IMG/VR virus record: IMGVR_UViG_3300031957_002677
Coordinates: 25,836-89,835 of that record
Source of the DNA: a virus
DNA length: 64,000 nt
Reading direction: 5' to 3' (one strand)
Shown: one piece after another, positions 8,637 to 64,000 of the stretch
How positions within the stretch are numbered: the stretch's first letter is position 1
How the letters are laid out: every line of letters begins with the position of its first letter
Program-made: the position numbers and the translations under genes
The notes under the pieces: model-generated
The model's database searches: none
Told to the model about the DNA's origin: nothing
Seen by the model: only the letters and a program-made list of their open reading frames with translations

Positions 8637-9283
8637 TAGTTTTTTCTTCCTGTGTAAATTTTTAGGTCTTCTTCATATTCAAAATAATCTTCAAGTTCAC
8701 TATCATCGCAAAAATAGTTTCCCCAACCAGTTGCAATATATTTACTCTTTGAATATACAGGATTTCCACGATGAGTATGAGTGTAAAATGCGGGCCAAAT
8801 TAACATCGTCCCTGCTTTTGGTTGTACTCTAAGACCTTGCCAAAGAAACTCACTTTCACCCTCACCTTCAGGAATGTCATTCAAATATAACATCCAAGCA
8901 ACACATCTATCAACAGCACCCAAATCAGTAATCTCACAGTGCCAGTCATGAAATCCACCTCTAGGTGGAGTTTTTTGAAGTTTTACCTCATCAAAGTTTA
9001 TAGAAACATAATTAGAAACCCAAAAGATTTTTTGATACTTTTCCCAGCAATACTCTACTGTTTTAATAATAAGATCAAATGCTGGACTATGATCCAGATA
9101 CCACTGATAATCATGCCTAGTTAGATGACCCATTACAGTGCCATCTATTCCCTTCCCAGTTCTAAGATTGTTGCTTGGATCATCTGGATCCTTATAATTG
9201 GAATCAAATAGTGATACTAAAGAATCACAAACATCAATATCCATTACATTTTCATAAAGACCAATAAAATCATTATGTTTCAT
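8636..9283 (-). CDS. 2-oxoglutarate/Fe(II)-dependent oxygenase (215 aa), HxE type
   Basis: The jelly-roll core is visible from about residue 90. The first two metal ligands appear to be H115-x-E117 in FHDWHCEITD, a Glu in place of the usual Asp. The distal His is H169 or H171 in PAFYTHTHRGNP, followed by a strand ending KYIATGWGNYF, where the usual 2-oxoglutarate-binding Arg may be a Lys. GEGESEFLW matches the EGGEx strand of prolyl-4-hydroxylase-like enzymes. The ATG overlaps the stop of the two-domain oxygenase (ATGA). The substitution at the triad makes activity less certain than in its neighbours. Confidence 0.75.
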   Translation of the reverse strand: MKHNDFIGLYENVMDIDVCDSLVSLFDSNYKDPDDPSNNLRTGKGIDGTVMGHLTRHDYQWYLDHSPAFDLIIKTVEYCWEKYQKIFWVSNYVSINFDEVKLQKTPPRGGFHDWHCEITDLGAVDRCVAWMLYLNDIPEGEGESEFLWQGLRVQPKAGTMLIWPAFYTHTHRGNPVYSKSKYIATGWGNYFCDDSELEDYFEYEEDLKIYTGRKN

Positions 9284-10677
9284 ACGACCCAAGTAATGAT
9301 AGAAAATCTTGTTCCAGATTTAACTGGCATAATTTCATGTGGGTACATAAAATTAGATGGGAACATGATCACATCACCAGCATCCAGTTTATATACCAGT
9401 TCACGATTGAATAGTGCAACTTCTCCACCTTCATAAGCATTATTCATTGACACAATCACTGTCAATGCTCTAGGTTGTTCTTTGAATGAATCTGTATGTT
9501 CAATATAAAAGTCACCCTCTTCATATTTGAGCAGTTCATAACCACTATCCTCCTGGATTTCTAGTTCAAACTCTGGATGTGCTTCTTGATAAAGTCCGAT
9601 TAAGTTTTGAACAACCTCAAACATTTGATCATCTAATTGCTTCCTAACCTCAGAATTTTCTTCAGCAATGATTGATTGTTCAGAGATACAAATTTGTTCA
9701 CATCTTCTTGCTTCTGGATCGTGACCACTTCCAGTTAATGTTGCTTCCCAATAGTTTGTATTTGCATACTCATCTAGGATTTTATCGCATAGTTCAGGAT
9801 CAACAACTTCTTCACCATACCATACAAAGTCGGCAAGAGATTTAGATGATAATTTGCCAGATGGTTTTGATTTCTCTTCTACTTTAGGTTCGTTAATCAA
9901 CTCTGGAGTATCCTTCTTTGTCAAGAACTTTTCATATTTGCTATTAACAATGACTACATCATCAAAGTCAATATAATCAGTATCATTTACAGGATCTTGC
10001 ACAATTTCAACTGTTGAAGAGTCTTCATTTTGTTGCTGTTGCTGTCTATACTTCCGAGGAAGAATTGTCATGTCACTTACATTAGAAAAGTTTCTCATTT
10101 GTTCATACTCCTGTAATAGTTCTTCAGTGTTAATATCTCTAAATTTATTTTTATCAAAGTATGCAGGACTACACATACCACGACTTCTTACATAATGCAA
10201 GAAAAATTGAGTGTACTCTTCACCCTCAAATTCATCTCTCCAATGTGGAGCAATACACCCCAAGTATAGCATAGCATCACCAGGATTCAAGTTAACTGAT
10301 CTATTCTTTCCTTCTGGTGTTTCAATCCAAATTGCCCAAGGTTTATCACTACCAAGGTGCAATGTCATTGAAATTTCACATCCAGGACGATCAGTATGTC
10401 TATGGAGAATACTTCCGTTTCGATATATTCTAGAATAAACGTAAGTGGGAAGAACGGTTTCACCAATTAGTTTAGAAACTTCTGGAGTTTTATTTGCCAG
10501 AAGTTCTAATGCTGGAAGATAATCATATACTGCTGATGATTTTGGTGCCTGTTCATCACCATTGAAATCAAAGATTTCATCAGTAACAAAAAACTCTTTC
10601 TCTAATTGTGCTGCATGTTGTGGATCAATAAAATTTGGAACAACAATATAGTTGTTCTTCAATAATTCAATATTCAT
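9280..10677 (-). CDS. Two-domain 2-oxoglutarate/Fe(II) oxygenase (465 aa)
   Basis: Two oxygenase domains are fused. The N-terminal one (about 1-165) has LHRHTDRPGC (H94-x-D96) and APHW (H145). The C-terminal one (about 270-465) has FYIEHTDSF (H394-x-D396), the EGGEVALF strand, FMYPHEIMPV (H447) and SGTRFSIITW (R457), a textbook prolyl-4-hydroxylase-like arrangement. They are joined by a charged, Gln/Glu/Lys-rich linker of about 100 residues, including a run QQQQQN. Each domain retains its own ligands, so both may be active. It follows the coiled-coil protein gene by 9 bases. The pairing suggests two modifications on one substrate. Confidence 0.8.
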   Translation of the reverse strand: MNIELLKNNYIVVPNFIDPQHAAQLEKEFFVTDEIFDFNGDEQAPKSSAVYDYLPALELLANKTPEVSKLIGETVLPTYVYSRIYRNGSILHRHTDRPGCEISMTLHLGSDKPWAIWIETPEGKNRSVNLNPGDAMLYLGCIAPHWRDEFEGEEYTQFFLHYVRSRGMCSPAYFDKNKFRDINTEELLQEYEQMRNFSNVSDMTILPRKYRQQQQQNEDSSTVEIVQDPVNDTDYIDFDDVVIVNSKYEKFLTKKDTPELINEPKVEEKSKPSGKLSSKSLADFVWYGEEVVDPELCDKILDEYANTNYWEATLTGSGHDPEARRCEQICISEQSIIAEENSEVRKQLDDQMFEVVQNLIGLYQEAHPEFELEIQEDSGYELLKYEEGDFYIEHTDSFKEQPRALTVIVSMNNAYEGGEVALFNRELVYKLDAGDVIMFPSNFMYPHEIMPVKSGTRFSIITWVV

Positions 10678-17131: not shown

Positions 17132-18391
17132 TTACTTCTTAATTACAGAAACAGCAGCATCACCTTGCTCAAACACAATGTCAACAACATTCTGAATCTT
17201 TTGTGCAGTCTGAATACCAACTTTGTTGTAAGCAGGAATACAAACCAAACCATAAGATTTAGTGTATTGATCAAGTTTACCTGGAACAATAGTTCCATTG
17301 CGAAGACCAGCAGCATCATCTTTATGCAATCGAATCACACGACCGATAGTCTGACTGATGCCAATATAATTCATTGACCTCATAAAGATCACAGAATTGA
17401 GACCAGAGACGTTAATACCTTCTGAGAGGATGCTGTGATGAAGCACAACAAACTTCTTCTCATCATCCCTACCCCAAGCACTCAAAGTCTCAAAGAACTT
17501 CTCACGATTGACCTTACGACCATCAATCACTGCACCAGTCTTGGCAGTGATATACATGTAAGAATAACCACGTACTTCCAGTTGAAAAGTAAAATCAGAC
17601 TGACCAATCAGGTTGATGATATTCTTAGTAGATTTTGAGCAGATCAGTGCTTTATCAGCACCAGTCTCATCAATAGTCTTGATTAGATGTGCAGAATCAC
17701 GGACAGGAACATCAGGATAAAGATCTGCATTATCTAGTTGATTGACAACAACCTTAGGAGGAATGATGAAACCGTTGTTGACCAGTTCGGGTGCAGGAAC
17801 CTGACAAATAACCTGACCGTAAACTTCAGGATCATTCATGCCAGGTTTCATTACCGTAATAGAATGCTTCGGAGTTGCAGTAAAGAAATAGCAACGATCA
17901 GCATCATGACTGAAAAACTCAGTAGGAGGAAAGAAGTTACGGGTAACGGAATTGTGTGCCTCATCAAAATATATTGTATTGACTTCAATATCTGCTTCCA
18001 TCACACGATGAAGAGAATGATAAGTAGTGAAGATGATCATGTTCTCACCCATGCTACGAGCAGTGCCAGCATATAGATGAATCTGATCTGGTTTAGTAGA
18101 ACTAAAGTAATGAGTCTCACCACTATGAACGTGCATTACATGCAAATATGGATCACTGTTATTAGGATCAATAAGTTCCATAAACTCACTACAGAGTTGC
18201 TCAGCAAGAAGAATGCGAGGAGCAACAACAACAGTAGTGGTGCCACTGTTGATTGCATCGTGTGTTGTAATAGTATCTTGAATCATGGTGATAGTCTTAC
18301 CACCACCAGTCGGAACGATTACTTGTCCAAGATCGTGCTTCAACATAGCATCGCAAGCACGTTGCTGATGAGGACGAAGAGAAATGGTCAA
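17132..18391 (-). CDS. SF2 (DEAH-type) DNA helicase (419 aa)
   Basis: This is a superfamily 2 helicase of the ResIII/UvsW-like kind. It starts with a Q-motif-like RPHQQRACDAM, Walker A VPTGGGKT (about 25-32), motif II YFDEAHN, motif III FFTATP, and the second RecA lobe with SEGINVSGLNSV and motif VI QTIGRVIRLHK. It should couple ATP hydrolysis to duplex unwinding or branch migration. Many T4-like cyanophages encode a similar protein; whether it is the functional counterpart of T4 UvsW is not clear. It is the first gene after promoter G, which implies early expression. Confidence 0.85.
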   Translation of the reverse strand: MTISLRPHQQRACDAMLKHDLGQVIVPTGGGKTITMIQDTITTHDAINSGTTTVVVAPRILLAEQLCSEFMELIDPNNSDPYLHVMHVHSGETHYFSSTKPDQIHLYAGTARSMGENMIIFTTYHSLHRVMEADIEVNTIYFDEAHNSVTRNFFPPTEFFSHDADRCYFFTATPKHSITVMKPGMNDPEVYGQVICQVPAPELVNNGFIIPPKVVVNQLDNADLYPDVPVRDSAHLIKTIDETGADKALICSKSTKNIINLIGQSDFTFQLEVRGYSYMYITAKTGAVIDGRKVNREKFFETLSAWGRDDEKKFVVLHHSILSEGINVSGLNSVIFMRSMNYIGISQTIGRVIRLHKDDAAGLRNGTIVPGKLDQYTKSYGLVCIPAYNKVGIQTAQKIQNVVDIVFEQGDAAVSVIKK

Positions 18392-18414
18392 GTGCTTTCC
18401 GTATCAATGAATAT

Positions 18415-18469
18415 ACTATAAAGCACCCAGACCCTAAAGTCAAGGTGCTTGTGACAGTTCGCAAACTGG
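18415..18469 (-). promoter_or_regulatory. Early promoter with the clearest upstream dyad (site G)
   Basis: On the minus strand, TTGACT (18443-18438), a 17-base spacer and TATAGT (18420-18415) form a good sigma70-type promoter for the helicase. Upstream, CCAGTTTGCGAACTGTCAC (18469-18451) contains CAGTT-TGCG-AACTG, a 5+5 dyad with perfect arms, 30 bases from the -10. Of all seven copies this one shows the symmetry best. It lies just after the stop of the 54-residue gene. Confidence 0.7.
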
Positions 18470-18474
18470 TTCTA

Positions 18475-18639
18475 TCAGATCATTTTCATCGTCTCTTGTT
18501 GTTTGAAATATAATTTTACATATGATTTAAGCATCGTTCGTAGACCCTCAATATCTTCAATCTTATCAATATCTCTTGAAAGTCTTTCATACTCAAAAGA
18601 TTTTGATGGTGTTTGTAATGAAATCTCAGATGGGTCCAT
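18475..18639 (-). CDS. Small helical protein (54 aa)
   Basis: The frame from ATG 18639 to TGA 18475-18477 gives a 54-residue helical protein (MDPSEISLQTPSKSFEYERL, ending KLYFKQQETMKMI). The ATG is preceded by a strong Shine-Dalgarno AAAGGAG eight bases upstream. A sigma70 promoter is present further up (18724-18752). Similar-sized proteins sit in the same place in other cyanophages, from memory. No function known. Confidence 0.65.
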   Translation of the reverse strand: MDPSEISLQTPSKSFEYERLSRDIDKIEDIEGLRTMLKSYVKLYFKQQETMKMI

Positions 18640-18723
18640 AAAGATACTCCTTTAGCAATTTTCTAGCATTATATAGACGTGTCAAGGTCTTAAAGCTATT
18701 TCCTTTCTAACCCCAACAGAGAG

Positions 18724-18752
18724 ATTGTAGCAACTTTTAGGTATCTTGTCAA
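18724..18752 (-). promoter_or_regulatory. Sigma70-type promoter TTGACA-N17-TACAAT
   Basis: The minus strand has TTGACA (18752-18747), exactly 17 bases, then TACAAT (18729-18724). The -35 overlaps the stop of the giant fibre gene ending at 18749. A second TTGACA with a nearby TATAAT lies about 60 bases further on but with non-standard spacing. It drives the 54-residue gene and, by read-through, possibly the helicase. Confidence 0.7.
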
Positions 18753-21700
18753 TACAACCCAGCATCAATCTCAACATTTACAACATTTAGAACTTCTTTT
18801 ACCTCTACTCCTGTGTCAATAGTATTTGCTTCAAAGATTGTAGTGATTCCAAGAGTGTTGCTTATGTTGATATAGAGATTTTGTAACTCTATCTCAGATG
18901 GAAGTCCTTGAGGTAGGAGATAACGATCTCTTCCAACTTCACCAGTGCCAGGATCAATATTTACATCGGTGCGGATTGCAACTCTTCCAGCAGATTGATC
19001 ATAGAAAATACCAGCATACTTATGAGTTGAAAGTCCAACATCATAACGTGCCATCAAAATACCAGCATCACCAGTATTTCCTACTGCTACATTAGGTGGA
19101 ATAAGTGTTCCTTGATTAAGTGGATCTTCAATGAGACCAAGTGTGAGAAGGTTATCTCTAATGTTAACATCTTCAACATTCAGTCTTGCTTCATTACCAT
19201 TGAAGAATGCACTATTAGCAGTAACATCACTTGAAATTGCAACATTACCAGTGCCATCATCCATTGCAATACAGATTGTTCCACCACCAGCACGCATAGT
19301 GCCTGTGCCTACTTGTAAATCACCTGTGACAGTTGTCAATATATCACTATCCATTGTGATATTATCTTGACCATTACTTGCACGAATGATGTTACCACCG
19401 ACTTGAATTGGTCCAGCAAATATGGTATTATTATTTGCTACCATAGTGATATTAGTATCACCAGTACCTGCTAGAATATTATTTCCTTCAACTCTGATGT
19501 CACCAGTGAAACTTGTTAGTTCCTGAGCATCAAACATCAAGATATTAACTGTACTATCAGATGCTAGAATTTGATTTCCACGAACTTCTAGATCACCATA
19601 AAGAATAGTTTTAGAATCACCTTCTATTGTAATGTTAGTAACACCAATACCATCTTGAATATCTCTTCCACCAACAACTAAATCACCAGTAATTTCAGTA
19701 TATGTTGCACCAAGACCAATTTGAATTGCAGTAAATTCGTCAGATGATTGAATAACATTCTTACCAAGTCTCAAGAAACCAGTAAGTTCTGTGACATTAT
19801 TCCTAATGGTAGCAATACCAATATCATCTGCACCAATAACAACATCTTCTCCAGATTTGAATAAGTCTGCTCTTTGTGATGTATCAGCAATATCAATAAC
19901 ATTAGAGTCGCACTTAATATGAGTACCACCAATCTGAACGAAACCTGCAAATGCTGTTGAAGTAGCACTATCAAGTGTGATATTTACTTGCCTATCACTT
20001 GCTTTAATTTCATTTTGTGATAGAATCAGTCTTGTAAGTTCTGTATTTTCACTTCTAATTGATGTAATAGATCCTGCCTGTTCACCTTGACCCATGTCAA
20101 TGAATTGTGCTCCACCTGCAAAATTCAGTTCAGTAACACCATAATTTAATAGGTCAAATCTTAATTCTGGATTTTCTACTGATGCATTGATTGCAGTGCC
20201 AAGAACACTTAAGTTATTGTGTACGAATAGACTTGTACTAAATGCATCCAGATAGAAACCTGGATTAACAAACATTTGTGCTCCAGCATCAGTCTGAGAA
20301 GTTCCAGCATTTGCCATTGCTGGATAGAAGAACTCAGGATTTGTGCTATTATTTACATCTTGCTTATAAACGTCTACATTATTTGCTTGGAAAGCAGTAG
20401 AAACGAATGCATTATTGAAATTATCACTAATAACGTTTAAGAATCCATTGATTGTTGCAACACCAACATGATTAAAGAAACCAGCACTATCAACATTAGC
20501 AAACCTCGACTTACCTGGACCAACATCTAGGTATATTTCATTTTCATCCGTATTACCAACTCCAGCAACATTTAGATATGCAATCGTTGCACCCAAACCA
20601 ACGTCTAGGTTCACCAAATTTGCTTGACTGTCAGTTCCCTCAGGACCAACATCTAAGAAGTTACTAAAAATAGTATTCCAACGACCACCGTCACTACCAA
20701 TACCACCAGTTGGAATGTTATTAGTATTTGGTAATAAATTTGAGAATACTGCACCATCAGTATTAACCTCAGTTTTTCCCAATGGAGCAAATGATGATTG
20801 TTTAGAAGATGGTGTCATACCAATCGAAAGGATTGGCATCTCCAAATTCATATTTCCGTAAAATCTACTGAGTACATCATCACCGAGATGATCTTCAGAT
20901 CCACTAGTTCCACCTAATCCATAACCAACTTCAATATATTCGGAAACACTAAATCCATAACCAACTTGTCCAAATTGACGAACCTCCATACCACCAGTGG
21001 TGAAAATGGCGGCAGAAGCTGCTTCTGTATCAATACCTGCTTGTGCCCAGTCACCTTCACGTTGATCATTAAATACTCTCAACCTTGCTTTTTCTGAATT
21101 ACCTGGTTCACGGACGATATTAATGTCCTCCATACAAGTGATGGTGTCATAAAATAGGGATTCGGGAACAACAACGAACTCAGTTCCTAAACCAGTCTCA
21201 CCACCATTTATAGGATCAGTGATAAGTGGATCACCACCATTAAAGTGAACTCTACCAGAAACATATAGTGCTACTTCTTTGGGATCTGCTGCACCAACAT
21301 TATCAATTACAACTAAACCGTGTGCTGTAAAATCATCATCCGCAGAACCATTGATAGTACCACCAGGACCAGTGACTGCGATACCAATATCAGCATTACT
21401 ATTTGCCGCATTACCACCTTGTGCTCCAGCAACAGGAACATTTGGTTGTCCAATATAAACCGTTCCCATTCCTGAGTCACGGGCAAGCGTAGTAACTCCA
21501 GTAACTACAAGATCCCTAGTTGTTGTGAGTCCACCTACGTTTAACTTGGGGAATGTTGCTCCGAAACCAGTTACAGAACCACTAGATCCATTATCAACAT
21601 TTAAGTTTCCTTCAATATAAACATCGTCTAGTAAATATGTCTCATTAAAGTTAATCAGTGAATCATCAGCAGTAGAACCTCTTGCTGTTCTCTCTGTTAG

Positions 21701-51312: not shown

Positions 51313-51762
51313 ATGTCTAAAAGCATCAAGAGCAGATATAAACCTTCCAACCCACAAAAATATGTAGGTGATGTAAATAATATAATTTGTAGAAGTTCAT
51401 GGGAAAGAAGATTCTGCAATTGGTGTGATAGTAATGAAAGTATTTTAGAATGGGGTAGTGAAGAGTTTTGGATACCCTATCGTTCTCCCGTTGATAATCG
51501 AGTTCACAAATACTTCCCAGATTTTTTCGTTAAGGTTCGTGAAAGAAACGGAATGATTAAAAAGTATGTGATTGAAGTGAAACCACATAAACAAACACAA
51601 CAACCTAACCCAAAACCAAAACGTAAGACTAAATCATGGTTGTATGAAGTAAAGACATACGCAGTAAACCAAGCAAAGTGGAGAGCAGCAACAGAATTTT
51701 GTGCTGATCGTTTACTTGAATTCAAAATCATAACAGAAAACGAACTTGGCATTAAGAGATGA
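51313..51762 (+). CDS. 4: Head completion protein gp4 (nuclease-like)
   Basis: The 149-residue protein begins MSKSIKSRYKPSNPQKYVGD and has the conserved gp4 segments CRSSWERRFCNWCDSN, SEEFWIPYRSPVDNRVHKYF, PDFFVKVRERNG and YVIEVKPHKQT. It ends with KWRAATEFCADRLLEFKIIT. The D-x-F...E-x-K (PDFF then IEVKP) arrangement is a PD-(D/E)XK-type active site. gp4 is added to the head after DNA packaging. It leads the + strand operon under TATAAATA. The next gene's start overlaps its stop by ATGA. Confidence 0.88.
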   Translation: MSKSIKSRYKPSNPQKYVGDVNNIICRSSWERRFCNWCDSNESILEWGSEEFWIPYRSPVDNRVHKYFPDFFVKVRERNGMIKKYVIEVKPHKQTQQPNPKPKRKTKSWLYEVKTYAVNQAKWRAATEFCADRLLEFKIITENELGIKR

Positions 51763-57305: not shown

Positions 57306-57999
57306 GATAAGGGCATTTTCCTCTTAGGTTTTTGTCAAATAAAACTTCTTTTAAGAACTTTGAATCTTCAGATAAAACTTCTCTTCGATTTTCGAGAGCA
57401 TCAAACATACTATCCGTTGATTTTTTCTTCTTAAGAATTGGTTTGTCGTTCATATTATCCGTATAAAAACGAACTCGATAGAGTGGATCACCTCTCTCGA
57501 TCATAACTCCATTTGAGTTTGCTTCATATTTAATACCAAGAGAAGTTGTTCTTGGATGATTAGCAAGATTAAACCATCCACCAATAGCAACAAAGTTATT
57601 ATCAGCAAACGTTTGTGGGTGATCTAAAAATTCAAACCACAAGTATTCTTGATTATAAGATGTCCAGAAAAATGAATTGATGAACGATAATTGAATGACA
57701 TGAATATCAGTATCCAGATCACTTAGTGTGAAGAAAATATTTTCATCACCATATTCTTCATCAATATCATTTAAATTAATAATAACGCAAGGTTCTTCAT
57801 TAATTTGATACTTTAGAATATCACCATCATATTGTAGTGAAAAATCTACGGGAGAATAACCAACAAAAGTTCGATCAAACATATGTCCCCAAACAGGACA
57901 TTGACTATAAGTATAATCTAAATGAGAACTACGATCCTCATGCTCAATTATATTTTCATCATAAAAATTTATAGGATCATAGTAAACATCATACTTCAT
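57295..57999 (-). CDS. Conserved hypothetical protein (234 aa)
   Basis: The product begins MKYDVYYDPINFYDENIIEH and is rich in aromatic residues, with a beta-type middle (CPVWGHMFDRTFVGYSPVDF, INSFFWTSYNQEYLWFEF). It ends in a Lys-rich linker and a helical tail. I recall proteins with this YSQCPVWxHxFxRTFVGYSPVDF pattern next to PhoH or nuclease genes in cyanophages, with no assigned role. It overlaps the PhoH core by ATGA. Confidence 0.65.
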   Translation of the reverse strand: MKYDVYYDPINFYDENIIEHEDRSSHLDYTYSQCPVWGHMFDRTFVGYSPVDFSLQYDGDILKYQINEEPCVIINLNDIDEEYGDENIFFTLSDLDTDIHVIQLSFINSFFWTSYNQEYLWFEFLDHPQTFADNNFVAIGGWFNLANHPRTTSLGIKYEANSNGVMIERGDPLYRVRFYTDNMNDKPILKKKKSTDSMFDALENRREVLSEDSKFLKEVLFDKNLRGKCPYHDV

Positions 58000-58622
58000 A
58001 GAATACCTAATTCATTTTTGGCAACAATATATTCTCTACACAGACCAGATCTTACAATATCATCAGCATCAAACTCAACGATATCTACTGAAGGCATTTG
58101 CTCTAGGATTTTCATAAAGTCAACGATACCATTCTTTTCGTTAGTCTTTACTAAATCACTTTGACTTGCATCACCGCAGAACATAATCTTACAGTTGTCA
58201 CCAACCCGTGTAATAATACTATCGAGTTCATGATAGTTCAAGTTTTGGAATTCGTCAATAAGAAGAATAGAATTGTCAAATGTAGTACCACGAATGAATG
58301 ATGTACTCCAAAAACTAACTGTTCCTTGAGTCTTGAGATTGCCATAGAGCATTTCAAACTCAGCATCAGAAGGCATTTGAAACATGTACTTAACCATGTT
58401 CTTGTATGGAATCTGATAGAGATTGGATTTGTCATCATGATCTCCTGGAAGAAAACCAATCTCTCTGGTTGCCACAAGAGATCTAATCACATATACCTTT
58501 TCATATGGTGTGAATTGATCTAAAGCTTCTTTGATTGCATGATATAAAGTAATGAATGTTTTACCTGTACCAGCAGTTCCGTAGGCAACAATATGCTTTC
58601 CTTCTTCATAAGATTTGAACAA
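57996..58622 (-). CDS. phoH: PhoH-like ATPase core, frame interrupted upstream by TAA
   Basis: The core contains Walker A VAYGTAGTGKTFITLYHAIK, a B-type segment (LLIDEFQNLN) and the PhoH arrangement FIRGTTFDNSILLIDEFQNL then MFCGDASQSD. PhoH is a P-loop protein often carried by marine phages; its role is unclear. The in-frame sequence continues upstream (PLTENQKK) to a TAA at 58647-58649 and then to the 36-codon piece that starts at 58757. No in-frame ATG lies between the stop and the Walker A motif, so expression of the core would need the TTG at 58622 or readthrough. Confidence 0.8.
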   Translation of the reverse strand: MFKSYEEGKHIVAYGTAGTGKTFITLYHAIKEALDQFTPYEKVYVIRSLVATREIGFLPGDHDDKSNLYQIPYKNMVKYMFQMPSDAEFEMLYGNLKTQGTVSFWSTSFIRGTTFDNSILLIDEFQNLNYHELDSIITRVGDNCKIMFCGDASQSDLVKTNEKNGIVDFMKILEQMPSVDIVEFDADDIVRSGLCREYIVAKNELGIL

Positions 58623-58646
58623 CTTCTTCTGATTTTCAGTGAGTGG

Positions 58647-58757
58647 TTAAATATTTAAAAGATGATCAGTATTGATTGGTTTCTTACCTTTAAGTGCTTG
58701 ACGATGATACTCCGAATTAATACCAACGTTATTGTTGTTTCTTTTCCTTCTAGCCAT
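58647..58757 (-). CDS. N-terminal segment of PhoH, ends at in-frame TAA (36 aa)
   Basis: The frame from ATG 58757 encodes MARRKRNNNNVGINSEYHRQ then ALKGKKPINTDHLLNI and ends in TAA (58649-58647). The next codon (CCA, Pro) continues in the same frame as the PhoH core. The Arg/Asn-rich start and the KKPIN segment are typical of the PhoH N-terminal region. Restoring CAA (Gln) in place of TAA would give a 253-residue protein of normal length. So this looks like one gene broken by a single nonsense change. Confidence 0.65.
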   Translation of the reverse strand: MARRKRNNNNVGINSEYHRQALKGKKPINTDHLLNI

Positions 58758-58758
58758 G

Positions 58759-59010
58759 TCAGATTTTTAGGTTTTGTGCTCCAGGTTGTTTTGATGCTCG
58801 TTCAAGAACTTCATTCCAACCTGGTTTTGATTTAACGAGTTTGTCTTTCCACTCACCAATTGGTTCTAGTCCCAATCCAGGTGAATTTTCTGGAGTATAG
58901 AACCTTTCCCAGTCTGGGTTATCTTGTTTCCACTGATCCCATTCGTGAATACTCATTTTCACTTCTTTGGTCTCACCAGTCTCCCTATTTTTTACAGGAT
59001 ATGTTGCCAT
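58759..59010 (-). CDS. Small conserved cyanophage protein (83 aa)
   Basis: The product begins MATYPVKNRETGETKEVKMS and ends in VLERASKQPGAQNLKI. I recall cyanophage proteins of the form MPTYRVKNxxTGE...PGWKExLxKIAExxPGS, some annotated as zinc-ribbon or FmdB-like, and this resembles a compact Cys-free version. The ATG at 59010 is used; the frame could open at a GTG three codons upstream. It is one base before the PhoH start. Function unknown. Confidence 0.65.
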   Translation of the reverse strand: MATYPVKNRETGETKEVKMSIHEWDQWKQDNPDWERFYTPENSPGLGLEPIGEWKDKLVKSKPGWNEVLERASKQPGAQNLKI

Positions 59011-59033
59011 GATTATCACTCAGTGTAGTTTAT

Positions 59034-60050
59034 TTAGATCTTAATCCAACGTTCGTTTGCGAGAGTCCATTGAACAACTTCTTTGACACGATCACGAATA
59101 TCTTTAGGTTCCCATCCCATTGCCTTCATCTTTTCACCAGATAATGCATAACGTAAGTCATGACCAGGACGTGCAGAGTGGAAGTCAACCATCTCATACT
59201 TAAGTTCCTTGCCCTGAGCATCAGCAATCATCTGTGCAAGTTGAAGATTGTTGAGTTCTTCTGCACCAACGATGTTAAACTTAGGACACCTTGCACCACC
59301 CCAAGTGTAAGACTCTACGTCCTTACCAAGTAGGAATAGAAGTGCATCTGCAACGTCTTCGGCATGAATGTAGTGTCGTGATCCAGGAATTTCCTTAGTT
59401 GGATCACTGTGAATGGTAATTGTCTCACCATCACGGGCACGTTTAATGCACATGGGAATGAACTTCTCTGGGTGTTGACGTTGCCCGAAGACATTCATTG
59501 TGTGAGTAATGTATACAGGTACTCCATAAGTGTTGTGGAAAGCAACTGCTAGTTCTTCACCACCTGCCTTGGTTGCACTGTATGGGTTAGTAGAATTGTA
59601 ACGATCGTTCTCTTCATACAGAATACCATCTGGTGCAGGACCAAAGACTTCATCAGTACCAAAGTAAACAAATCTTTCTAGATGATCTAGACTACGGGCA
59701 TAGTCAAGGATGTTGCAGGTTGCCACAACATTATCCATGACGAATTCCATAGGATATTCAATGCTGCGATCAACATGAGAACCAGCAGCAAGATGAAGAA
59801 TGTAATCAACCTTACCAATGTCCGCAGCAATCAGTGGATTCACTGCTGCCTTCAGATCATGGAATACAATCCTCACCCGAGAACGATCTTCAGCAGAAAA
59901 ATCTTTTAGAACGTCTTCAAGACGATTAAGATTTCCACTGAAGTCTAGACGATCTAGCGTAACTACTTCCCAGTCTGTATTTTTCAAAATCTGGGAAATT
60001 AAATGGTGGGCAATAAAACCTGCACCACCTGTAATTAACGCTCTTTTCAT
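59034..60050 (-). CDS. NAD-dependent sugar-nucleotide 4,6-dehydratase-like (RmlB type), 338 aa
   Basis: This is an extended short-chain dehydrogenase: ITGGAGFIAHHL (about 6-17, GxxGxxG NAD motif), HLAAGSHVDRSIEYP, FGTDEVFGPAPDG (the TDE of 4,6-dehydratases), and NPYSATKAGGEELAVAF (YxxxK catalytic pair). RmlB converts dTDP-glucose to 4-keto-6-deoxyglucose; the nucleotide and sugar here are not determinable. I set the start at ATG 60050; a TTG four codons upstream is unlikely. It follows the carbamoyltransferase genes and may feed a decorated sugar. Confidence 0.8.
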   Translation of the reverse strand: MKRALITGGAGFIAHHLISQILKNTDWEVVTLDRLDFSGNLNRLEDVLKDFSAEDRSRVRIVFHDLKAAVNPLIAADIGKVDYILHLAAGSHVDRSIEYPMEFVMDNVVATCNILDYARSLDHLERFVYFGTDEVFGPAPDGILYEENDRYNSTNPYSATKAGGEELAVAFHNTYGVPVYITHTMNVFGQRQHPEKFIPMCIKRARDGETITIHSDPTKEIPGSRHYIHAEDVADALLFLLGKDVESYTWGGARCPKFNIVGAEELNNLQLAQMIADAQGKELKYEMVDFHSARPGHDLRYALSGEKMKAMGWEPKDIRDRVKEVVQWTLANERWIKI

Positions 60051-60069
60051 GTTTTTTCTCAAATACTCT

Positions 60070-61293
60070 TTAATTATAACTCAAATTGTTCTGTCTTGCA
60101 ACCTCTAGTTCAATTTGCTTCTTTAAAATGCTGTTTGGTGGTTGGTGAATTCCTTGATAAATTGACTTTAAAGGTTTAATATCAGTTGATTGAGTTCTTT
60201 CATGATGGAATATTTTTGCCGCACCAAATGATTGACATGCATCACCAGCAATAGGATCAACATAAAAATTAATATTAGGATACTCTTCTTGAACTACTGA
60301 GTTTGCACATATATTCAATGCACATCCACCAGAGAATACAATATTCTTAGTATCTGGTTTCAGTTCTAGAGACTGTTCAATTCTCATTCTTAAAACATCT
60401 TCCATACATTGTTGGACTTCCCATGCCAAATCTGCTTTCTTCTGAAAATCATTATGATGTCTAAGAACTGGAAAGTTTGTTGTGTTGAATAGTCTATTAC
60501 TATAAAACACATTCATATTTGCCATTCCATTATCAAGAATGAATGGTGGGAAATCATCATTTTTATTCCCGTATGCAGCAAGTCCCATTGTCTTACCACA
60601 TTCATCACGATGCCATCCTAGATGATATGTAACTGTTCCATACATAATGCCAATATCATAACATGAGTTGACATCAATCCTATCGTTTGCAGTCATCATT
60701 TCAAAGAAGTCATTTGGGAAATTGACTTGAATGAATCCTCTAGGTTGTGGTGATGGAACGATGAAATTTTTCCACAATGGTATAAAACCATGTGGATATT
60801 GTGCAGAATATATTGATGTGCTCTCTAGGAACATAACGTCATCCCACTGTTGGGCCTCCTTTAATTCAGCATCAGTTAATTCAATACCTGCTAGTTGCAT
60901 TAGAGTATCAACTCTATAATCTGCACCCCATCCATCAATAACAATACAAACAGCCTCATCAAACCCTGAAGCATAAAATGCAGAAGAAGCATGGTACAAA
61001 TGGTGCTCTTGAACTTCTTGCACTCTTTTAATATGGTTAAGTTTGTATTTCTCTAACATGTCAATCATGTCTTGAAATTCTCCATCCTCACCATTAATTA
61101 AAACAATTTCATCAAGACCATATTGTTCATGAAACTTTTTAATATGGTCAAAAATATGGTATAAAAAATTATCATGTTTTTTACCAGACAATCTTTCTTC
61201 TAAAATAATTTCATAGACTTCACCATTATGAAGCATAGTCACACCTGCTTCATGACCACTACAAGATAGAGAAGCTACATTATAATCTTTCAT
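60070..61293 (-). CDS. Carbamoyltransferase N-terminal (Kae1-like) domain protein, copy 2 (407 aa)
   Basis: It carries the ASKHA/Kae1-like half of NodU/TobZ-type O-carbamoyltransferases. The motifs are VASLSCSGHEAGVTMLHNGE (about 6-25), QEHHLYHASSAFYASGFDEA (metal-binding H97/H98/H101), VIDGWGAD (about 118-125), then NIVFSGGCALN and DPIAGDACQSFGAAK. This half transfers the carbamoyl group to the acceptor using adenylate made by the C-domain. In typical enzymes both domains are one chain of 550-600 residues; here the C-domain is a separate gene upstream (61290-61847), overlapping by ATGA. The acceptor (sugar or nucleotide) is unknown. Confidence 0.8.
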   Translation of the reverse strand: MKDYNVASLSCSGHEAGVTMLHNGEVYEIILEERLSGKKHDNFLYHIFDHIKKFHEQYGLDEIVLINGEDGEFQDMIDMLEKYKLNHIKRVQEVQEHHLYHASSAFYASGFDEAVCIVIDGWGADYRVDTLMQLAGIELTDAELKEAQQWDDVMFLESTSIYSAQYPHGFIPLWKNFIVPSPQPRGFIQVNFPNDFFEMMTANDRIDVNSCYDIGIMYGTVTYHLGWHRDECGKTMGLAAYGNKNDDFPPFILDNGMANMNVFYSNRLFNTTNFPVLRHHNDFQKKADLAWEVQQCMEDVLRMRIEQSLELKPDTKNIVFSGGCALNICANSVVQEEYPNINFYVDPIAGDACQSFGAAKIFHHERTQSTDIKPLKSIYQGIHQPPNSILKKQIELEVARQNNLSYN

Positions 61294-61847
61294 TTTACCA
61301 CCAACATACTAACATCTGCGAAATAAACATAATGAAGTTCGGATTTTTGTAAAGAATCTATTGCTTGCCCTACAGTTTCTACTATTGCATCACCAGCAAG
61401 ATTGAATGATGTATTTAATAAGATTGGAACCTGTGTATTAATATAAAAAGTTTTAATCAGATTATAATAATGAAAATTCTCTTCTTTATTTACGGTTTGA
61501 ATTCTACAAGTTCCATCTACATGAGTAATTGAAGGAATGTATTCTGACATTCCATCCTTTACTCTAAGATTGAATGTCATATGAGGAGAACTCTTCAGAC
61601 CAATCATATCAAACCATTTATCAGCATGTTCTTCCAAAACAGAACCAGCAAACGGTCTAAAACTTTCTCTCTTTTTTACAGTGTTGACTATATCTTTTCC
61701 ATCAGGAACTCTTGGATCAAAAATAATTGATCTATTTCCCAATGCTCTGGGACCAACTTCGGATCTTCCTTGATGTATTGCTCCGATTTTTTTATCTAAA
61801 ATCAATTCAACAACGTCATCATATGTAACATCATATTTTATTTTCAT
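61290..61847 (-). CDS. Carbamoyltransferase C-terminal (YrdC-like) domain protein, copy 2 (185 aa)
   Basis: This is the C-terminal domain of NodU/TobZ enzymes as a stand-alone gene. IGAIHQGRSEVGPRALGNRS (about 21-40) is the conserved carbamoyl-adenylate-forming motif, followed by SFRPFAGSVLEEHADKWFDM, HVDGTCRIQTV and LLNTSFNLAGDAIVETVGQA. It should make carbamoyl-AMP from carbamoyl phosphate and ATP. The start overlaps the 61844 gene stop and the stop overlaps the 60070 gene start, so three genes are translationally coupled. Confidence 0.82.
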   Translation of the reverse strand: MKIKYDVTYDDVVELILDKKIGAIHQGRSEVGPRALGNRSIIFDPRVPDGKDIVNTVKKRESFRPFAGSVLEEHADKWFDMIGLKSSPHMTFNLRVKDGMSEYIPSITHVDGTCRIQTVNKEENFHYYNLIKTFYINTQVPILLNTSFNLAGDAIVETVGQAIDSLQKSELHYVYFADVSMLVVK

Positions 61848-63109
61848 GCACTAGGTCCAAAATAAAGGTGTTTGAATGGGAATTTATCTTTACTCTTGGT
61901 CATTCCATACCATAAGTATTTTGCTGCTCCGATTGCTGTTCCCGCGTCGTGTGCAATAGGGTCTACAAAGAATTCTACATTTGGAAATGCCTTTGTATAT
62001 TTATAGTTGTTCACACAATTTAAAAAGTAACCTCCAGAAAGTACAATCTTATTTTTTCCAGTTATATCTAATGCTTTCTTAATTAGATTGCATGTATGAA
62101 TGAAAGTTACAGTCTGAAGTTTATCGGCAAGAGATGCACAAATATAAAAGTCGAGTGTAGGATTATTAAACTCGGTATTGATTCCTCTTGAACCCATTGC
62201 CGCATCATATTCATCTGGATCAATCCCAGCAATAAATTCTTCAAAATGTTTGAAGAGGTCATATACAGTTATATCTACACCTTCGTTCTCCATAAACCAA
62301 TCTTTAATAAAGATTGATTTTTCCTTTTCATAATTTCTAAAGACATGCTTATTCTCTTCAAGATTATCTGATGACAATCGATGACCAGATAATCCCATAA
62401 CTTTTCCCGCTTCAGTTCCACCGTGCATCTCAAAGAGACCACAAATCATATTAAACAAATCCCCACAACTTCGTGTACGGGAGTAGATCTCATTTTTACT
62501 TCTCTTCCAAAAAATTTCTTCCTCCCCACTCATCTCATCACCTAAAGCGTCTAAGATAGAACAATGTTTAAACTTAGTCTCAAAGAATGGAAAATCATAA
62601 GAACAATTAAAGATACTCTCAATTTCTCTGAATGGATATTCATATTTTTCAGAAGTCACTTCTTCTCTATATTTTGTATCGAAAGCACCACCACCATCAA
62701 GAACTAGTGCTGCTGCATCATCAAATCCAGATGCAAAGAAAGCATTTGCAGCATGATAAATGTGATGGTTATCGGAATAAAACATAGAGGTGTTGAAGTT
62801 TACACCACCATTCTGCAGTCCTCTAAGGAAACTGTTACGAACGACATCATCATCGTCCTGTCTATCTCTACCGTAAGAGGAAAAAATAATATAATCAATC
62901 CAAGTTGTATATTTTTTGATGGCATCAACTTGATGGCAAATTTCTAGAATTTTACCACTATCATCATATTCTGCAAAAATTTCATCAACGGATCCCTCAG
63001 GGTTTTTAATACCCGTTAATCTTTCTTCCTCAGAAAAATATACAACTTCACCATCTTTCAAGAGACATGCTGATGGTTCATGTGATATGTTTACACCTAA
63101 GATGTACAT
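61844..63109 (-). CDS. Carbamoyltransferase N-terminal (Kae1-like) domain protein, copy 1 (421 aa)
   Basis: The motifs parallel copy 2: MYILGVNISHEPSACLLKDG (1-20), DNHHIYHAANAFFASGFDDA (H115/H116/H119), LVLDGGGAFD, NKIVLSGGYFLNCVNNY, and DPIAHDAGTAIGAAKYLW near the end. It lies one base after the copy-1 C-domain stop (63111) and overlaps copy 2's C-domain start. The two N-domains differ widely outside the motifs, so they may act on different acceptors. This N-domain/C-domain split is a gene-level one; neither piece is truncated. Confidence 0.82.
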   Translation of the reverse strand: MYILGVNISHEPSACLLKDGEVVYFSEEERLTGIKNPEGSVDEIFAEYDDSGKILEICHQVDAIKKYTTWIDYIIFSSYGRDRQDDDDVVRNSFLRGLQNGGVNFNTSMFYSDNHHIYHAANAFFASGFDDAAALVLDGGGAFDTKYREEVTSEKYEYPFREIESIFNCSYDFPFFETKFKHCSILDALGDEMSGEEEIFWKRSKNEIYSRTRSCGDLFNMICGLFEMHGGTEAGKVMGLSGHRLSSDNLEENKHVFRNYEKEKSIFIKDWFMENEGVDITVYDLFKHFEEFIAGIDPDEYDAAMGSRGINTEFNNPTLDFYICASLADKLQTVTFIHTCNLIKKALDITGKNKIVLSGGYFLNCVNNYKYTKAFPNVEFFVDPIAHDAGTAIGAAKYLWYGMTKSKDKFPFKHLYFGPSA

Positions 63110-63110
63110 A

Positions 63111-63680
63111 TTAAACCTCGTTCTTTGAATAGACTAGTGTTTGCTTTTCTGGAAGATAAAGATATTCAAATGATGACTCTTCCAAAGTACTAAGAGCATC
63201 TTTTAAATTGTGGACAATTGGTTTTCCACTCACGTTAAATGAAGTATTACCAATAATGGGAACTCCAGTTAAATCCTTAAATGCTTTAATTAAATTATAA
63301 TAGTGCAAGTTTTGATCTTCAGTTACAGTTTGGATTCTGCAGGTCTTATTCTTATGTACAATTGCAGGTATCTTTTTTACTTTATCCTTTTTCACATCAA
63401 TGGCATAAGTCATAAAAGGTGATTCTTTAATTGACCCATTATCAAACCACTCAGAAAAGTCTTCCAATAAAATAGAACCAGCTACAGGTCTATACCATTC
63501 TCTACCTTTATGTAAGTTTACATGACCCCACATTTCAAACATAGATGGATTAAACAGAAAAGATCTGTTTCCTAATGCACGTGGTCCACCCTCATCAGCA
63601 CCCTGAAAGATTGCTACAATATGGTTGTCATTTATTAATTTTGCAACGGTAAAATAACTTACCTTTGGTATTACTTTCAT
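63111..63680 (-). CDS. Carbamoyltransferase C-terminal domain protein, copy 1 (189 aa)
   Basis: The product contains IVAIFQGADEGGPRALGNRS (about 21-40). The family usually has GRxE where this copy has GADE, so an Arg that normally precedes the acid is Ala. The rest is regular: WYRPVAGSILLEDFSEWFDN, HKNKTCRIQTV, GVPIIGNTSFNVSGKPIVHN. If the Arg matters for carbamoyl phosphate binding, this copy may be altered. A late promoter AATAAATA lies about 20 bases upstream of its ATG. It heads the carbamoyltransferase cluster, just downstream of thyX. Confidence 0.8.
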   Translation of the reverse strand: MKVIPKVSYFTVAKLINDNHIVAIFQGADEGGPRALGNRSFLFNPSMFEMWGHVNLHKGREWYRPVAGSILLEDFSEWFDNGSIKESPFMTYAIDVKKDKVKKIPAIVHKNKTCRIQTVTEDQNLHYYNLIKAFKDLTGVPIIGNTSFNVSGKPIVHNLKDALSTLEESSFEYLYLPEKQTLVYSKNEV

Positions 63681-63700: not shown

Positions 63701-64000
63701 TTATTTATTATGCTCTGCCCACCCAAGTGCTTCAGAAATCACTGGGAACTGTCCAGCAAAGATACACTTACACTCATTAGCAATGTCCATATGCTCTTTC
63801 TGCGTTCCGTTAGCAGACCTCAGATCGATATAATGAATCCATGAACGAACTGAGCCACTCATGTAAATTTTGGTGGGTACTGCTAAAGGAAGCACAAAAC
63901 GAGCACATTCCTTTGCCACACCATGATCAAGCATAGTCTGATATAGATCCATAGCAGAAGCAAAATGCCTTTCAATAGCAATCTCAAACTCTTGCTTATG
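63701..64000 (-). CDS. thyX: Flavin-dependent thymidylate synthase ThyX, C-terminal part
   Basis: The frame enters from the right edge without a start and ends with TAA at 63701. The 99 visible residues include ECARFVLPLAVPTKIYMSGS, RSWIHYIDLRSANGTQKEHM and a C-terminal ISEALGWAEH, the end of ThyX. The ThyX motif (RHRxxS) would lie outside the window. ThyX makes dTMP from dUMP with methylene-tetrahydrofolate and flavin. It connects with the deaminase-like gene at 3771. A Met at 63952 is internal, not the start. Confidence 0.88.
   Translation of the reverse strand, partial: HKQEFEIAIERHFASAMDLYQTMLDHGVAKECARFVLPLAVPTKIYMSGSVRSWIHYIDLRSANGTQKEHMDIANECKCIFAGQFPVISEALGWAEHNK
63702..63709 (-). 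promoter_or_regulatory. T4-like late promoter AATAAATA
   Basis: The minus strand reads ATAATAAATAAAACA, overlapping the thyX stop and about 22 bases before the ATG of the first carbamoyltransferase gene. It implies late expression of the carbamoyltransferase and sugar-nucleotide genes. Confidence 0.55.

Follow-up and report, generated by a model that had tools for sequence, protein, structure and literature searches.

How would a carbamoyltransferase work when its two domains, which usually form a single chain, are encoded by separate genes in the reverse order, and what would a phage do with two such pairs? The question is raised by the last 64 kb (hereafter the window) of the 89.8 kb IMG/VR virus contig IMGVR_UViG_3300031957_002677, which belongs to a T4-like cyanophage (Kyanoviridae). 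On its minus strand, from 63680 to 60070, lie four consecutive genes, C1-N1-C2-N2, in which Pfam recognizes the separated YrdC-like (C, PF16861) and Kae1-like (N, PF02543) halves of this type of enzyme (Table 1). Judging from the broad congruence of the C and N trees, the purifying selection acting on the genes and the age of the two paralogous pairs, they probably encode two cognate, split, two-subunit class III O-carbamoyltransferases, C1:N1 and C2:N2.

The arrangement itself is not an artefact. Rechecking the open reading frames and the sequence confirmed the coordinates, the junctions (a 1-base gap at C1/N1), the motifs and the GADE of C1 that an earlier note on this DNA had described. The Synechococcus phage isolate S-SCSM1 (Zhoulongquanvirus, NC_070962) carries the same four genes in the same order (gp175-gp178), with the same flanks and the same downstream dehydratase, at 65-86% protein identity. 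It is essentially the same system, annotated merely as four 'Nol-like carbamoyltransferase' genes, and the genome paper of this phage does not discuss them. An independent contig from another metagenome (L164) matches the window over 8.8 kb, two junctions included, at 99.99% identity with a single mismatch. More widely, the series of eight genes thyX-C-N-C-N-NDP-glucose 4,6-dehydratase (NDP, nucleoside diphosphate)-rbpA-phoH is common to S-SCSM1 and about ten IMG/VR contigs, so that the survey of relatives proposed in the earlier note finds a conserved split layout and no frameshift artefact. Between relatives, the ratio of nonsynonymous to synonymous substitutions (dN/dS) is 0.06-0.23 for C and 0.12-0.33 for N, N evolving faster than C.

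The catalytic apparatus is also in place. Functional roles have been described for the KxR and SxN motifs of YrdC-like domains and for the HxxH and D of Kae1-like domains (PMC9654439), as well as for the Fe ligands and the general-base His of the latter (PMC9633730). We counted residues over 60 split and 220 fused C domains and over 100 split N proteins. K58, R60, S147 and N149 (KxR...SxN) are invariant in all 60 split C, and the metal-site residues (HxxH, D, D) in all 100 split N, while the general-base His is found in N1, N2 and 92 of the 100 (five have Asn and three are truncated). In alignments with TobZ, K443 and S530 correspond to K58 and S147 of C, and H14 to H10 of N1; the TobZ variants K443A, S530A and H14N exist in the PDB. 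TobZ is the first structural hit of the AlphaFold models of both N1 and N2, built on alignments from which rows of annotated phage records had been removed; the C-terminal tail of N2 is modelled with low confidence. The GADE that replaces GRSE in C1 is a true change but not a meaningful deviation: the column with A in C1 holds R in just 38 of the 60 split and 148 of the 220 fused C domains, and N in the active 5-hydroxymethylcytosine (5hmC) carbamoyltransferase. An inactivation of C1 through this change is thereby ruled out.

As the earlier note supposed, these enzymes are normally one chain with the N domain first: the genes are fused N-C in 77 of the 80 nearest loci of bacterial and archaeal genome contigs. 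The three exceptions are a C-N pair (L259), a locus cut by the contig end (L312) and the same phage locus in a bacterial bin (L267). The latter reads thyX-C-N-rbpA-phoH, a cyanophage-like locus within a metagenome-assembled genome binned as Rhodospirillaceae, and is likely a misbinned phage contig. Viral loci are mostly fused too (170 loci); counting viruses and cells together, 69 of the 271 distinct locus groups contain split genes. They come as C-N, C-N-C-N, C-N-C-N-N, C-N-N-C-N-N, N-C-N, NC-N or lone N; a single thyX-C-N pair is found in S-RIM44 and Sf-FP1, and PHROGs already has a family for the stand-alone C gene (phrog_20469). In the C tree, split genes are interleaved with fused ones and the starred branches force at least four changes, which argues that splitting or fusion arose more than once. 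We found no description of a split class III carbamoyltransferase in the open-access literature searched, where absence is no proof. On sequence grounds, the split form is a real and long-conserved variant of a known enzyme family.

Do the four genes form two pairs? In the four-gene cassettes, C1 and C2 constitute separate clades (support 100/99 and 98/93) whose order is never exchanged, and so do N1 and N2 (100 and 100). N1 falls together with the single N genes linked to thyX (97), N2 with the N-C-N cassettes found near phoH (97), and C2 with the C genes of those same cassettes (89/89). The C and N trees thus agree in broad outline, and the two pairs seem to differ in ancestry and to have come to lie in tandem, rather than to stem from a recent duplication; C1 and C2 are 46% identical, N1 and N2 29%. 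The catalytic residues, purifying selection and conserved order support the earlier suggestion of two-subunit enzymes in two divergent copies. The further idea of swapped partners finds no positive evidence in trees that point to C1:N1 and C2:N2 as the pairs. A quick tree had placed the C1 of three loci (L017-L019) beside C2 (84), as partner exchange would, but the careful tree returns them to the C1 side (85/80).

In such a two-subunit enzyme, the YrdC-like C subunit would convert carbamoyl phosphate and ATP into carbamoyl-adenylate, and the metal-containing Kae1-like N subunit, bound to C or docking on it, would transfer the carbamoyl group to an acceptor hydroxyl. Late expression and translational coupling, with C before N, would provide matched amounts of the partners. 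N would hold the acceptor specificity and diversify, while C would provide the common chemistry and stay conserved; the faster evolution of N is what is expected if N sets the choice of acceptor. We infer both the physical association of C and N and the reaction from the sequences.

The comparison with known systems situates these pairs. TobZ, VtdB, GdmN and NovN, of class III, share with the cyanophage pairs both domains, the catalytic residues and a predicted chemistry in two steps, but in one chain with the Kae1-like domain first, whereas the cyanophage form has two chains and the YrdC-like gene first. Membership in class III is hence at the level of domains only: the residues are those of the class, but the single chain starting with Kae1 is not found. 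HypF resembles the cyanophage pairs in having YrdC-like before Kae1-like and in using carbamoyl phosphate (PMC9654439), but it is one chain from another sequence family, with acylphosphatase and zinc-finger domains, and acts on a thiol of HypE; Pfam finds neither of these domains in our four proteins, which contain Carbam_trans domains alone. In the synthesis of N6-threonylcarbamoyladenosine (t6A), TsaC and TsaD are likewise separate YrdC and Kae1 proteins that hand over an adenylate intermediate, but they transfer threonylcarbamoyl to tRNA and belong to different sequence families. Indeed, the best families of the four proteins are PF16861 and PF02543, and TsaD/Kae1 chains are reached by profile with E values of just 0.04-0.05. 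The 5hmC carbamoyltransferase found through MetaGPA (PMC8670742) is also a phage-encoded member of the NodU/TobZ family. It differs in being a fused 63 kDa chain accompanied by a deoxycytidine monophosphate (dCMP) hydroxymethylase, in having RALC/NTT instead of the RALG/NRS seen here, and in its very distant position in the C tree.

As to the acceptor, we consider a glycan to have an even chance, and sugars of a surface or virion glycan are the most likely candidates. A sugar is likelier than DNA because the last gene of the cassette codes for a highly conserved 4,6-dehydratase (96-98% identity between close relatives) and because fused paralogues lie in heptose and tail-fibre clusters in S-SSM7 and S-CAM1, and in a mannose/glycosyltransferase cluster in S-SCSM1 itself. 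The dehydratase suggests a 6-deoxysugar as acceptor of the pair that precedes it. Given the faster divergence of N and the two old lineages to which the pairs belong, each pair could plausibly have its own acceptor. The paper on the S-SCSM1 virion proteome does not name the carbamoyltransferases among the non-structural proteins that it discusses. A gene of the S-SCSM1 glycan cluster (112133-113002; 18134-19003 in our locus L331) is annotated as 'DNA beta-glucosyltransferase', and its context suggests an ordinary glycosyltransferase.

Several observations weigh against this picture of cognate pairs acting on glycans. The grouping of all C1 has a support of just 85/80. Neither a PF00535 glycosyltransferase nor a dehydratase of this kind is encoded by S-RIM44 or Sf-FP1, which have one C-N pair each; a phage-made glycan is therefore not a universal acceptor, and the carbamoyl group may go to a glycan of the host or to another kind of molecule. 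Finally, strict 1:1 pairing is at odds with N genes that stand alone, with no C nearby. In four loci (L026-L029), a lone N lies between rbpA and phoH with no C within the fetched stretch; the C may be elsewhere, or the N may work alone.

The alternative that survives best, possible though clearly less probable than fixed pairs, is that C proteins are interchangeable activators serving several N in the manner of TsaC and TsaD, in a C/N network with several acceptors. Loci of relatives were sampled more heavily with C than with N as query, and still 20 of 48 locally complete cassettes have more N than C genes, the sole opposite case being due to a truncated fused copy. Cassettes such as C-N-N-C-N-N, N-C-N and NC-N exist, and all surplus N keep their metal residues. 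In view of this surplus, a single C serving more than one N in relatives is a fair hypothesis. It is equally tentative, at the same modest level, that cyanophages have made the fused O-carbamoyltransferase into a modular kit in which one YrdC-like activator feeds exchangeable Kae1-like transferases, each for a different glycan hydroxyl of host or virion. In the window, however, the 2:2 ratio, the coupled neighbours and the broadly congruent trees favour fixed pairs.

It is improbable that N1 and N2 form a heterodimer like that of TsaD and TsaB, one subunit being catalytic and the other structural. TsaB, the partner of TsaD, is a degenerate paralogue. N1 and N2 do share the TsaD fold, and TsaD-TsaB complexes are among the hits of both models, but neither of the two is a degenerate protein: both keep HxxH, D and D, as do all 100 split N, and single C-N pairs occur without a second N.

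Slightly less probable still is that the acceptor is a DNA base, a hydroxymethylated pyrimidine of the phage genome carbamoylated as by the 5hmC carbamoyltransferase of Yang et al. (2021), a possibility that the earlier note had entertained. A carbamoyltransferase beside a thymidylate synthase does resemble the MetaGPA association (PMC8670742). But, as that note had already remarked for the window, no hydroxymethylase is visible: PF00303 (ThyA/dCMP hydroxymethylase), the family of dCMP and deoxyuridine monophosphate hydroxymethylases, is absent from the fragment G000 and from the complete S-SCSM1, S-RIM44 and Sf-FP1, and PF12851 (TET/JBP) gives no match above the cut-off. Nor do the split C have the residues by which the 5hmC enzyme is recognized: G37 and R39 (TobZ G421 and R423) are present in all 60, where the assayed enzyme has C and T. 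The 5hmC enzyme also sits on a very long branch of the C tree. The position of TobZ W408 is I in C1, in C2 and in the assayed 5hmC enzyme alike. Moreover, thyX belongs to the core genes and occurs in phages that lack the cassette, and the promoter is of late type. Elsewhere in the window (9280-10677, minus strand), a 465-amino-acid protein has a C-terminal 2-oxoglutarate-Fe(II) oxygenase domain (PF13640, E 3e-15); its match to Tet_JBP stays below the threshold.

Two last readings can be practically discarded. Decaying fused genes, frameshifts or an assembly error have nothing in their favour beyond the split itself, and are refuted by a domain order that is reversed and not simply interrupted, by the agreement of L164 and S-SCSM1, and by dN/dS and intact residues. 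Aspartate carbamoyltransferase of pyrimidine biosynthesis, as which related cyanophage genes have been treated (PMC10436341, PMC9146016), is not matched by any of the four genes, all of which match Carbam_trans_N/C and class III structures.

The two C-N pairs are part of an insertion cassette, at a site between thyX and rbpA-phoH within a core module. Because S-SSM5 and S-RIM2 have the empty site thyX-rbpA-phoH, the vicinity of thyX is incidental: both neighbours that the earlier note had pointed out, thyX and the sugar-nucleotide dehydratase, do flank the genes, but a functional link to thyX, a core gene that occurs without the cassette, is unsupported. The motif behind the late-type promoter also proposed there is real. 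T4-type late promoters have ATAAATA as their core; of its 13 sites in the window, 10 lie at most 60 bp upstream of the start of a same-strand gene (circular-shift p 0.0004). Most relatives, including nearly all with four genes, retain the motif in their orthologous gap. From this position, conservation and enrichment, the cassette genes are probably expressed late, apart from thyX, and coupled via their overlaps. In one four-gene relative (L183, 1259-1937), thyX and C1 are separated by an extra, gene-sized insert of some 680 bases. The phoH of the window contains an in-frame premature stop (58647-58649, minus strand) where the 99.99% identical L164 has an intact gene of 253 amino acids; this one-base difference is probably a variant or an assembly error. 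PADLOC returned no hit for a defence system. Further away (51313-51762, plus strand), a small protein gives a strong match to the N-terminal part of TnsA-like endonucleases (PF08722, E 6e-24), and the gene at its counterpart position in S-SCSM1 is annotated as head closure.

Table 1. Features of the carbamoyltransferase cassette and its flanks, in window coordinates.
Feature	Position	Strand	Remarks
thyX, 3' part	63701..64000	-	PF02511; truncated at the end of window and contig; core gene of cyanophages, one flank of the insertion site
T4-type late-promoter core ATAAATA	63702..63708	-	Overlaps thyX stop, 22 bp upstream of C1
C1	63111..63680	-	Stand-alone YrdC-like (Carbam_trans_C), 189 amino acids, E 4e-54; K58, R60, T146, S147, N149 intact; GADE at 27-30
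N1	61844..63109	-	Stand-alone Kae1-like (Carbam_trans_N), 421 amino acids, E 6e-14; H10, H115/H116, H119, D138, D388 intact
N1/C2 ATGA stop/start overlap	61844..61847	-	-4 also in most four-gene relatives
C2	61290..61847	-	Second stand-alone YrdC-like (Carbam_trans_C), 185 amino acids, E 2e-56; GRSE present
C2/N2 ATGA stop/start overlap	61290..61293	-	-4 in all listed loci with a second C-N pair, except L018 (-17) and L019 (-11)
N2	60070..61293	-	Second stand-alone Kae1-like (Carbam_trans_N), 407 amino acids, E 6e-22
NDP-glucose 4,6-dehydratase	59034..60062	-	RmlB-like (dTDP-glucose-4,6-dehydratase-like); last cassette gene
RbpA-like transcription regulator	58759..59019	-	phrog_385; other flank of the insertion site
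phoH	57996..58757	-	Follows the RbpA-like regulator

The class III carbamoyltransferases described in the literature searched are all single chains. A natural two-subunit form, if true, would make two questions accessible: is carbamoyl-adenylate channelled or is it shared, and can swapping one subunit retarget carbamoylation? The split form is widespread in sequenced cyanophages, and in relatives the transferase subunits exceed the activating ones. The family assignment further corrects those cyanophage annotations in which related genes figure as aspartate carbamoyltransferase. Carbamoylated sugars would represent a possible, unexplored layer of the surface chemistry between phages and their hosts in marine picocyanobacteria.

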